Assembly (NCBI GenBank): GCA_903903975.1
Contig: CAIVAS010000222.1
Coordinates: 1-64,000, forward strand
DNA length: 64,000 bases
Direction of reading: 5' to 3'
Source: an uncultured Burkholderiales bacterium
GTDB taxonomy: Bacteria; Pseudomonadota; Gammaproteobacteria; Burkholderiales; Burkholderiaceae_E
How positions within the stretch are numbered: position 1 is the first letter of the stretch; every line of letters begins with the position of its first letter. The notes beneath the pieces were generated by a model. The model ran no database searches. It had not been told where the DNA came from and worked only from the letters and a program-made list of their open reading frames with translations. Positions 3,204 to 32,100 of the stretch are shown one piece after another. The position numbers and the translations under genes were made by a program.

Positions 3204-3989
3204 ATGAAGATCAGCCTCGACAATCGCCTTGCCGTCGTCACCGGTGCCAGCCGCGGTATCGGGCTGGCCTGTGCCCGCGAGTTCGCGGCCGCGGGCGCCC
3301 GGGTGGTCCTGGTCGCCCGCGATGCCACCCGACTGACCGCCGCCTGTGACAAGCTGGTCGCCGAAGGCTTGTCGGTCATCCCGATGGCGGCCGACCTGTC
3401 CGATGCGCAGGCAGCGGCGGCGCTGGTCGATCGAATCGAATCCGAGGTCGGCGCAATCGACCTGCTGGTCAACTCGGCCGGTGCAGCCCGGCGCTTTGCG
3501 CCCGACGACCTCAATGCGGCGGCTTTTCATCAGGGCATGGACGCAAAGTATTTCAGCACGATGCATGTGCTGGCGCCGGTGGTGCAGGCCATGGTCCGGC
3601 GCGGTCGCGGCTCGGTGGTCAACATCATCGGTCAGGGCGGCCGCGTGGCCTCGCCGATGCATATCTCGGGCGGTGCGGCCAATGCGGCTTTGATGCTGGC
3701 AACCGTCGGCTATGCCCGGGCCCATGCCGGGCAGGGTGTGCGGGTCAACGCCATCAACCCCGGTCTGACCTTCACCAGCCGCGTTGAAGAGGGACTCGAG
3801 GTGTCGGCGCGTGCCAGCGGCAAGTCGCGCGAGCAGGTGCTTGCCGACGAACTCGCCAGGATTCCGATGGGACGCATGGCCCAGCCCGAGGAAGTTGCCC
3901 GGGTGGCGCTCTTTCTGGCCTCGGACGCCGCGAGCTATGTGTCGGGGGCGATCGTGCCGATGGATGGCTGCACCGGATCGGTCATCTGA
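3204..3989 (+). CDS. SDR-family protein lacking the catalytic Ser-Tyr-Lys residues
   Basis: Short-chain dehydrogenase/reductase fold of 261 residues. The start is ATG at 3204, preceded by CGGAGA about 8 bp upstream; the frame stays open far upstream but that part is not SDR sequence. The nucleotide-binding motif TGASRGIG (residues 13-20) and the NSAG motif (about residue 90) are intact, and VRVNAINPG follows the active site as usual. The catalytic stretch is abnormal: YxxxK is replaced by GGAAN (156-160), and the usual Ser position lies in NIIGQGG. It may bind NAD(P) but should not work by classical SDR chemistry. It is divergent from a Bug receptor. Annotation as a 3-oxoacyl-ACP reductase would be unsafe. 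Confidence 0.9.
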   Translation: MKISLDNRLAVVTGASRGIGLACAREFAAAGARVVLVARDATRLTAACDKLVAEGLSVIPMAADLSDAQAAAALVDRIESEVGAIDLLVNSAGAARRFAPDDLNAAAFHQGMDAKYFSTMHVLAPVVQAMVRRGRGSVVNIIGQGGRVASPMHISGGAANAALMLATVGYARAHAGQGVRVNAINPGLTFTSRVEEGLEVSARASGKSREQVLADELARIPMGRMAQPEEVARVALFLASDAASYVSGAIVPMDGCTGSVI

Positions 3990-4043
3990 TGCTGATTGAC
4001 TCGTTCCGGGACGTCCGCCGCACTTTGGGTTAATTATCAAGGG

Positions 4044-4068
4044 CGGGCACTCGGACGAATACTGCCCG
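4044..4068. other. Small inverted repeat downstream of the SDR gene
   Basis: CGGGCA at 4044-4049 pairs with TGCCCG at 4063-4068 around a 13-nt loop. It lies 55 bp after the SDR stop. No T-tract follows, so it is at best a weak transcription end or an operator-like palindrome. Confidence 0.3.
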
Positions 4069-4120
4069 GTATTCCCTATTTGTCTTGTCGGAAGGATGGC
4101 TGTGAGTTAGCTTGACCCTA

Positions 4121-4191
4121 GTTACCGGATGCAACAGAAAAGATTTTTTTTGTTGCGACGCCCTGAGTCGGTCGGCTCAGGTGCCGGTAAC
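4121..4191 (+). ncRNA. Candidate structured RNA leader (three-way junction)
   Basis: Three nested stems close on each other in 71 nt. P1 is GTTACCGG (4121-4128) with CCGGTAAC (4184-4191), a perfect 8-bp closing stem. P2 is GCAACA (4131-4136) with TGTTGC (4151-4156), extendable through a G-U and four A-U pairs to an 11-bp arm with a GAUU loop at 4142-4145. P3 is CCTGAG (4162-4167) with CTCAGG (4176-4181). Linkers are 2, 5 and 2 nt. The element ends 42 bp before the ATG of the response regulator. No riboswitch family is recognised. It could be a leader, an attenuator or an sRNA. The pairing is seen directly; the function is inference. Confidence 0.5.
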
Positions 4192-4233
4192 GAAAGAAAA
4201 AATAAACCAGTCAGGCACGAGACTCGCACGGCA

Positions 4234-4956
4234 ATGACACAAGGAAACGTTGAAGCTCAGGATGTGGCGACGCTCATCCCCGCTGTGCTCGATACGCCGA
4301 GCCTGGCGAGCGAGCCACAGCAGGTATTTGTTCTGGTGATCGACGATCACCCGATCATCCCTGAAGCGCTGCAAGACCTCATCGGTGCGCATTTCGACGG
4401 AGTGCAGGCCATTCAGGCCCCCAACCTGCGTCAGGCCCGCACGCTCTACCAGGTCGAAAAAAACATTGCGGTGACGGTGCTCGATCTTCGCCTGCCTGAT
4501 GCCGACGGCATGGCCAGCATCACTGATCTGCGAGCCTTGCGACCCGAGATTCCGCTGATCGTCTTTACCGGTCTCGACAGCGATCAGGTCCGCCGCAATG
4601 CCACCGAATACGGCGCGACGGCGGTTGTGTGCAAGACCGAAAGTACGGCGCGGCTGCTTGGCGAACTCTCTGCGCTGTTGCCGGGCCGTGTGGCCACGGC
4701 GAAGGGCACCGCCGGCAACGGCCCGGTCGCCACCATGACCAGACCGGCGAGTCGCTCCGAGCTGTCGCCGCGCCAGCAGCAGATCTGGCAGGGCATTGCC
4801 GAGGGGATGCCCAATATCGAGATTGCCCAGCGGCTGCAGATCAGCCTCAACACCACCAAGGCGCATGTTCGCGAGCTGCTGCAGCGCCTGGGTGTGCGCA
4901 ACCGCACCGAGGCCGCCACACTCTATTTGCGCAGGCGGGGCGAGCGTCAGCCTTGA
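4234..4956 (+). CDS. LuxR/NarL-type response regulator
   Basis: Two-domain transcription factor of 240 residues from ATG 4234. The receiver domain (about residues 30-150) has the acidic pair DD (37-38), the phospho-acceptor Asp84 in VLDLRLPD, Thr112 and Lys134 in VCKTES. The C-terminal LuxR helix-turn-helix (about 175-238) carries LSPRQQQIWQGIAEGMPNIEIA and NTTKAHVRELLQRLGVRNRTEA. An in-frame ATG at 4129 would add 35 Arg/Lys-rich residues translated through a predicted RNA structure, so the shorter start is preferred. No histidine kinase gene is nearby, so the partner is elsewhere. It lies 47 bp upstream of an ABC transporter gene on the same strand and may regulate it; that is inference from position. 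Confidence 0.92.
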   Translation: MTQGNVEAQDVATLIPAVLDTPSLASEPQQVFVLVIDDHPIIPEALQDLIGAHFDGVQAIQAPNLRQARTLYQVEKNIAVTVLDLRLPDADGMASITDLRALRPEIPLIVFTGLDSDQVRRNATEYGATAVVCKTESTARLLGELSALLPGRVATAKGTAGNGPVATMTRPASRSELSPRQQQIWQGIAEGMPNIEIAQRLQISLNTTKAHVRELLQRLGVRNRTEAATLYLRRRGERQP

Positions 4957-30921: not shown

Positions 30922-32027
30922 TGGAATTCGGACTGTCGTCGGAACAGGTCTTGCTCAAGGACAGCCTGGATGCCTATCTGCGCGAGCGGGTGGCCCTTGA
31001 ACGGGTTCGTCGCTTCGCAGAAAAAGACGAAGGTCGTGCTGCGGAGGTGATCGCCGGGCTCAACGAGATCGGCCTGTCAGGCCTGATCATCCCGACCGAA
31101 CATGGTGGCGTGGGTCTTGGGGCGCTCGATGCCTGTGTGGCCGCCGAGACGCTTGGCTACCGCATCGCGCCGGTGCCCTTCGTGGCCAACGCGATCATGG
31201 TGCCGACCGCGCTGATGCTCGCCGGCAGTCCCGCGCAGCAGGCCAACTGGCTGCCGCAAATTGCGGCCGGCAAGACGGTGGTGGGTGCGGCGCTGGCCGA
31301 ACGCAGCGGTGCACGCGCAGTGGCCGGTGCGCAAGCCGGCGTGACCGCAAGCGCTGGTCGACTCAGTGGTCGCGCGCTGTATGTGCTCGATTTCGAGGCC
31401 GATGCCTATCTGGTGGGCGATGTGGCTGGCGGCCTGCATCTGGTTGCGACTGACGCCACAGGACTCACGCGCCAGCGGCTCGAGACCGTCGATCGCACCA
31501 GACCAATCGGCGAGCTGGTGTTCGATCGGGTCGCAGCCGAGCCCCTTGTGGGTGCCGATGCCGCGGTGATGCAGCGGGTGCTCGACATCGGACGCACCAT
31601 GCTTGCCGCCGACTCATTGGGTGCTGCGCAGAACATGATCGATCAGGCGGTTGCCTATGCCGGTCAGCGGGTGCAGTTCGGGCGCGTGATCGGATCCTTC
31701 CAGGCGGTCAAGCATATGTGCGCGCAGATGGCGGCCGACCTCGAGCCCACGCGGGCCTTCGTCTGGTATGCCGGGCATGCGCTCGACGAGATTCCGGATG
31801 AAGCCAGTCTGGTGGCCTGTCAGCTCAAGGCGCATCTGAGCGAGGTGGCCACTTCGGTCGCCAAGACCGCAACCGAAGTCCATGGTGGTATGGGTTTCAC
31901 CGATCTGGTCGGTCTGCACTACTGGTTCAAGCGGATCGGCTTCAATCGGCAGATGCTTGGGTCGCCTGAGTTTTTGCGGAGCGAGGCGGCCAGATTGCAG
32001 GGTCTGGCGGAGGTCGGGGCGGGCTGA
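30921..32027 (+). CDS. Acyl-CoA dehydrogenase, small partner subunit (pair 2)
   Basis: Protein of 368 residues beginning at ATG 30921, which shares one base with the preceding stop. It starts MEFGLSSEQVLLKDSLDAYL and has IIPTEHGGVGLG near 54, VQFGRVIGSFQAVKHMCAQ near 250-268 and EVHGGMGFTDLVGLHYWFKR near 315-335. Both catalytic Glu positions are missing (IGRTMLAADSLG in helix G; no YEGT), as in the partner at 28408. It should form a heteromer with the protein encoded at 29728. It is the last gene of the plus-strand operon; a strong hairpin terminator follows 26 bp later. Confidence 0.9.
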   Translation: MEFGLSSEQVLLKDSLDAYLRERVALERVRRFAEKDEGRAAEVIAGLNEIGLSGLIIPTEHGGVGLGALDACVAAETLGYRIAPVPFVANAIMVPTALMLAGSPAQQANWLPQIAAGKTVVGAALAERSGARAVAGAQAGVTASAGRLSGRALYVLDFEADAYLVGDVAGGLHLVATDATGLTRQRLETVDRTRPIGELVFDRVAAEPLVGADAAVMQRVLDIGRTMLAADSLGAAQNMIDQAVAYAGQRVQFGRVIGSFQAVKHMCAQMAADLEPTRAFVWYAGHALDEIPDEASLVACQLKAHLSEVATSVAKTATEVHGGMGFTDLVGLHYWFKRIGFNRQMLGSPEFLRSEAARLQGLAEVGAG

Positions 32028-32052
32028 TCGGCGGCCCGGGCGATGCCCCATA

Positions 32053-32083
32053 AAAAAGGGCCGATCTCAGATCGGCCCTTTTT
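32053..32083 (+). terminator. Strong palindromic terminator ending the 14-kb operon
   Basis: AAAGGGCCGAT (32055-32065) pairs with ATCGGCCCTTT (32071-32081) around CTCAG, flanked by an A-run upstream and a T-run downstream. The symmetry gives U-tracts on both strands, so it can also terminate the convergent DUF6351 transcript, whose stop is at 32101. Confidence 0.92.
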
Positions 32084-32100
32084 CTTGATACTCACGCGGA

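Follow-up and report, generated by a model that had tools for sequence, protein, structure and literature searches.

A predicted three-way-junction fold upstream of an orphan response regulator gene in an uncultured Burkholderiales bacterium

Upstream of an orphan response regulator gene in an uncultured Burkholderiales bacterium, a segment of 71 nt (positions 4121–4191 of the window, as the whole analysed stretch of 64,000 nucleotides is called here) is predicted to fold into a compact three-way junction. The reading favoured here, tentatively and with a little less than even confidence, is that the regulator mRNA begins with this structured segment, which is specific to the lineage and would act without a ligand, via decay or via access to the start region. 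The sequence comparison does not support a conserved riboswitch, as in it the fold is not conserved with compensatory changes among five leaders, a sample of low power.

Predicted fold and gene setting

The genes, the parts of the fold and the upstream elements are located as follows.

3204–3989, plus strand: upstream short-chain dehydrogenase gene (Pfam adh_short_C2, 1.7e-44)
4079–4116, plus strand: conserved upstream block, likely promoter or operator (82–89% identity to each of four relatives)
4085–4090, plus strand: candidate -35 hexamer TTGTCG, invariant in five of five leaders
4108–4113, plus strand: candidate -10 hexamer TAGCTT, invariant in five of five leaders, only three of six positions matching the consensus
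4121–4128, plus strand: 5' arm of the closing stem P1, GTTACCGG, with eight perfect pairs to 4184–4191 in the predicted fold
4131–4156, plus strand: P2 hairpin, 11 pairs including one G-U (4131–4141 with 4146–4156) and a GAUU loop
4159–4183, plus strand: P3 hairpin in its minimum-energy form, 10 pairs and one bulge (4159–4162 with 4180–4183, 4164–4169 with 4174–4179)
4167–4191, plus strand: P3alt, an alternative hairpin competing with P1 and P3 (4167–4176 with 4183–4191), taken from pairing in the alignment
4184–4191, plus strand: 3' arm of P1, CCGGTAAC, taken from the predicted fold and the count of its sites in 64 kb
4192–4233, plus strand: spacer separating the fold from the start of the regulator gene, rich in A at 4192–4206 and largely unpaired in the predicted fold
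4234–4956, plus strand: orphan response regulator gene, receiver and LuxR-type helix-turn-helix (Pfam Response_reg 3.5e-16, GerE 8.9e-16)

The predicted energy of the segment is -35.1 kcal/mol, which none of 200 dinucleotide shuffles matched (z -6.33). This agrees with the earlier note, made by a reader of the letters alone, in which the fold was called unlikely by chance, with the reservation that the z-score overstates the surprise because the segment was chosen by a reader seeking structure. The fold pairs 58 of the 71 positions, and the probability of a three-way junction closed over 50–90 nt is 1.0, a value that 0 of 200 shuffles reached. The minus strand is also predicted to fold, though with less stability (-27.2, z -4.56). 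A scan in steps of 4 nt covered both strands of the window, and among the 31,966 segments of 71 nt the GC-adjusted score was reached by two, namely 4121–4191 itself and one at 32021, which makes the leader segment the second most structured of the window after GC adjustment. In raw energy, 938 of the 31,966 segments are as low or lower because the DNA is GC-rich. In the most structured segment, 32021–32091, a long inverted repeat of high GC content is flanked by an A run on one side and a T run on the other, which looks by eye like a bidirectional terminator.

The architecture drawn in the earlier note was recovered in the computed fold: a perfect 8-bp closing stem, an arm of up to 11 bp with a GAUU loop, and a third arm of 6 bp with an 8-nt loop (4162–4181; 4162–4167 with 4176–4181). 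The linkers of 2, 5 and 2 nt hold for this form of the fold; the minimum-energy fold extends P3 to 10 pairs, so that it directly adjoins P1. The distance of 42 nt between 4191 and the ATG at 4234 is also as described. The competing hairpin P3alt is 15.4 kcal/mol worse than the free fold in the window and has a mean pair probability of 0.0, and switching between P1/P3 and P3alt at equilibrium was rejected for this energy difference.

The regulator had been called an orphan, and none of the genome's 34 HATPase_c matches lies within the window (1–64000); a single one is found on the regulator's contig, at 85446. Its best NCBIfam models are ErdR and NarL, with scores far under their cut-offs. The regulator is followed by genes for an ABC transporter ATPase, a permease and an NMT1/THI5-like protein. 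In the 3.95-Mb assembly, whose completeness is 98.25, the element itself occurs once in full; the other four matches are 14–19 nt long (E 4.83), and a repeat element of the REP or MITE type was rejected on this count. The earlier statement that no known RNA family is recognisable was borne out, as the Rfam 15 covariance models gave no match at the gathering cut-off in the 64-kb window; nor did Rfam match any of four related loci. The best match over 4040–4300 at a lax threshold was tp2, which scored 20 bits where its cut-off is 50 (E 0.6). A literature search for a three-way-junction motif RNA of Burkholderiales with a response regulator returned nothing on the subject, judged by title, and absence from print is not claimed.

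Leaders of related genomes

A DNA search of 74 genomes of the family, including the window's own, found the region kept in four others, referred to as G050, G053, G055 and G048 (E 4.9e-43 to 2.7e-9, the G048 match covering only 4056–4115), and the remaining matches were short (E at least 0.004). The regulators of these four are 79–91% identical to that of the window, G050's being cut at a contig end, and in each of them the alignment shows the dehydrogenase gene's 3' end ahead of the regulator. By coding identity over the first 198 coding bases, G050 is the nearest relative (0.874) and G048 the most distant of the four. In 399 genomes sampled from the order, the window's genome among them, no genome but that one matched at E 1e-40, and a further contig search gave 11 loci, three of them close (85–91%). 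One MAG record with a 90% match (CAMCXH010000046.1) is titled Bordetella parapertussis, which is probably a mislabel.

The leader comparison thus comprises five sequences, the window and the four relatives. Six further members of the genus have a relative at 57–61%, and in five of these (L040–L044) the regulator starts, by eye, within a few bases of other apparent coding sequence. The sixth, G052 (L072), whose leader aligns poorly in the folded part, was left out of all pair counts. It carries a regulator that is 57–59% identical and keeps the order of dehydrogenase, leader and regulator (L072:2229–2500); its leader is unlike the others and has a hairpin of its own (z -1.65 over 2290–2500).

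Conservation is lower in the folded segment than in the upstream block. In the block 4079–4116, 29 of 38 positions are invariant in the five sequences, against 24 of 75 in 4117–4191, where identity to the window is 45–71%. In 4192–4233, identity is 45–74% and 16 of 42 positions are invariant; in 3993–4061, the values are 45–67% and 23 of 69 positions. The A-richness of 4192–4206 is shared by three of the four relatives in the alignment.

Of the 29 pairs of the window fold, 21 can form in G050, 20 in G055, 17 in G053 and 12 in G048. For P1 as aligned, the counts are eight of eight in G050, six in G055, four in G053 and two in G048. P2 can form eight of its 11 pairs in G055, G053 and G050 and five in G048, and the minimum-energy form of P3 five or six of 10 in the four relatives. 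P3alt is formable with eight or nine of nine pairs in four of the five sequences and with two of nine in G048.

Covariation in homologous leaders, the absence of which the earlier note had given as grounds against its proposal, was largely absent, at the low power that five sequences allow. Among the reader's 25 pairs there were two two-sided changes, a number reached by 160 of 500 shuffles; the share of paired cells was 69.9%, compared with an average of 67.8% in shuffles (63 of 500 as high), and the covariation score was reached by 76 of 500 shuffles. RNAalifold's own consensus of the alignment carries an unfavourable covariation term (+3.8). When the partners were slid by 1–3 columns, the paired cells fell from 69.9% to 39.7–53.7%, a drop that argues for the fold, but this control favours a structure derived from one of the compared sequences, here the window. 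By eye, no conserved junction core is apparent in the five-leader alignment.

The strength of the fold also differs among the species. Over 4114–4200, the folding z-score is -5.35 in the window, -3.36 in G055, -1.26 in G048, -0.49 in G053 and -0.11 in G050. For the aligned segment 4121–4191, the values are -5.97, -2.61, -0.13, -0.14 and -0.76 in the same order, and over 4114–4233 they are -3.26, -2.10, -2.29, 0.54 and 0.17. The probability of a three-way junction closed over 50–90 nt is 0.95 in G048 (three of 200 shuffles as high), 0.24 in G050 (34 of 200), 0.04 in G055 (85 of 200) and 0.00 in G053 (200 of 200). In G055 and G053, a two-hairpin form is preferred, made up of P2 (mean pair probability 0.88 and 0.60) and P3alt (0.84 and 0.71), the latter using the 3' arm of P1, and both hairpins have a probability of 0.0 in G050 and G048. 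G050 mainly keeps P1 (mean pair probability 0.87), without P2 or P3alt. The combination of P2 and P3alt was rejected as a conserved structure; it pairs 85.3% of cells, a share that 108 of 500 shuffles also reached, and has a covariation score reached by 189 of 500 shuffles, in a test on the same alignment from which it was derived.

The junction of G048 is closed by a 9-pair stem that lies at a similar place and is unrelated in sequence to P1. In 3000 shuffles of this leader, 89 gave a junction closed by at least seven pairs, 11 of them so placed; G048 is a single case among the four relatives tested, and the bounds on position were chosen once the fold had been seen. The G048 junction is the main result against the favoured reading, and it keeps alive, without showing it, the idea that topology is kept while sequence is not.

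Seven bases in 4121–4191 are private to the window, of which six lie in paired positions and make five pairs (4141–4146, 4134–4153, 4160–4182, 4166–4177 and 4165–4178). The first four of these pairs can form in no relative as aligned, and the last is formed in G048 as C-G. If the last split is the one marked by G050, the fold became perfect only afterwards. Such a pattern is expected from selection for structure, and equally from choosing the part of 64 kb that folds best.

Promoter candidate and start codons

The arrangement TTGTCG-N17-TAGCTT is invariant in all five leaders (the 17-nt spacer at 11 of 17 positions) and ends 7 nt ahead of P1. TTGTCG matches the -35 consensus at four of six positions. 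Were this arrangement the promoter, transcription would begin at about 4120, adjoining P1, as judged from the sequence. A consensus promoter scan called no promoter. A sigma-54 promoter (GG-N10-GC, about 4098–4111), noticed by eye, was rejected because GG is changed to GA in three of the five leaders. No intrinsic terminator was found in 3960–4300 on either strand, and the interpretation of the fold as the terminator of the upstream dehydrogenase gene was rejected accordingly.

A frame from the ATG at 4129, which would carry translation through the fold and which the earlier note had listed as contrary to its proposal, is open in the window, in G053 and in G048, and is interrupted by in-frame stops in G055 and G050. 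At its place the relatives have TTG or GTG, so the ATG is private to the window, and 4129 was rejected as a conserved start. A start upstream of 4234, for example at 4129, appears unlikely as a rule for the group but may still be used in this genome. Stops in two of four relatives and frame-changing indels make the leader region look non-coding. The regulator start codon at 4234 is itself uncertain from the alignment. The codon aligned with 4234–4236 is ATA in G055, so that another start is needed there, and an in-frame ATG lies eight codons upstream of the aligned start in G055 and also in G053. By eye, no clear Shine-Dalgarno sequence precedes 4234. The DNA just past the regulator start is highly conserved, with a mean pairwise identity of 0.90 over 4233–4252.

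Explanations for the fold and their implications

According to a review (PMC7509114), the recA and vacA mRNAs are stabilised by stem-loops in their 5' UTRs. For the regulator mRNA we infer a promoter in the conserved block (4085–4113), with a putative transcription start at about 4120. P1 would then close the first 71 nt of the RNA into the three-way junction, and the ribosome would be left with about 42 nt, largely unpaired and rich in A at their beginning. The 5'-terminal stem may then shield the 5' end from decay of the RppH/RNase E type, and the fold may keep the start region clear of other pairings. In this way, the level of the regulator would be tuned without ligand sensing. Stabilising 5'-terminal stem-loops of the ompA type are the comparison class. 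The likeness lies in a strong stem where the RNA is predicted to begin, a largely unpaired run from there to the coding start, and no need for a ligand. Unlike ompA-type leaders, the present one has a three-way junction, its start site and stabilising effect are putative, and no sequence relation is claimed. Emory et al. (1992), cited in that review, reportedly deals with 5'-terminal stem-loops, going by its title.

The favoured reading of a structured mRNA end draws on the z-score and second rank of the fold in the window, the invariant hexamers near P1, the lack of a terminator match, the non-coding look of the region in relatives, and leader structure elsewhere, as seen in the folding of G055, in P2 of G055 and G053, and in the junction of G048. 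Against it count the weak -10 match, the empty promoter scan, the open frame from 4129 and the uncertain regulator start, as well as the leaders of G053 and G050, which over 4114–4200 fold no better than shuffles. These two species, together with the missing P2 in G050 and G048, imply that such species would lack the 5' protection. A possible and serious rival, close behind this reading, is a neutral fold built by chance, in which the leader drifts between structures and the reader picked the species and the place with perfect pairs. It fits the low invariance of the folded segment relative to the upstream block, the private bases that make pairs mostly unformable in the relatives, covariation not clearly above shuffles, and three of four relatives mostly without the junction. 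It fits less well with the extreme z-score and second place of the fold in the window, with a G055 leader that is well structured too, and with the similarly placed junction of G048, whose P1 is another one.

The earlier note had seen the shape of a leader or riboswitch; the compact predicted fold and leader-like position stand, and a conserved riboswitch or leader motif does not. Three-way-junction riboswitches in general share a closing stem with two arms, a length of about 70 nt and the leader position with this element, which differs from them in having no Rfam match at the gathering cut-off, no conserved core seen and no terminator, and in a junction of low probability in three of the four relatives. 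The reading of the leader as a dedicated cis-regulatory RNA, like a riboswitch or binding a protein, which keeps its three-way topology through turnover of its sequence, is regarded as unlikely. Near-certain junctions in the window and G048, closed by unrelated P1 sequences at similar places, the predicted P1 of G050 and the loss of pairing on sliding the partners would agree with it, but the junction is improbable in G050, G055 and G053, no terminator offers an expression platform, and the fold ends 42 nt before the ATG. Moreover, G048 is a single case among four, and the sliding control is biased. Slightly less likely still is a rapidly re-wiring leader, in which a closing stem, an A/U-rich arm and a GC-rich arm recur in some species with turnover of sequence, and sister species adopt the two-hairpin form of P2 and P3alt.

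Least likely of all appears a DNA operator, in which the inverted TTACCGG/CCGGTAA arms and a third CCGGTA at 4066 would bind the regulator itself or another protein. The downstream gene does encode a LuxR-type DNA-binding regulator, and CCGGTA occurs at 4066, 4123 (minus strand) and 4184, three times within about 125 bp around the leader; however, the motif is common in the window, with 27 sites against 9.4 expected. CCGGTAAC has just two sites in 64 kb, namely the arms of P1 (0.37 sites expected; eight of 100 shuffles reach two), but these arms are 55 nt apart, and the 5' arm is changed in G055, G053 and G048 (62, 50 and 25% identity).

A fold of a single sequence with z below -6 can nearly vanish in orthologues about 90% identical in protein, and a fold score alone is therefore no proof of a conserved RNA. 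If the case of topology without sequence in the window and G048 held with more genomes, it would be a useful test of how fast leader structures turn over. If the reading as a structured mRNA end is true, the leader would be a further example of a structured 5' mRNA end, and its interest would be local, bearing on the dosage of an orphan regulator in a group of uncultured Burkholderiales represented, by their record titles, by MAGs from lakes and ponds.
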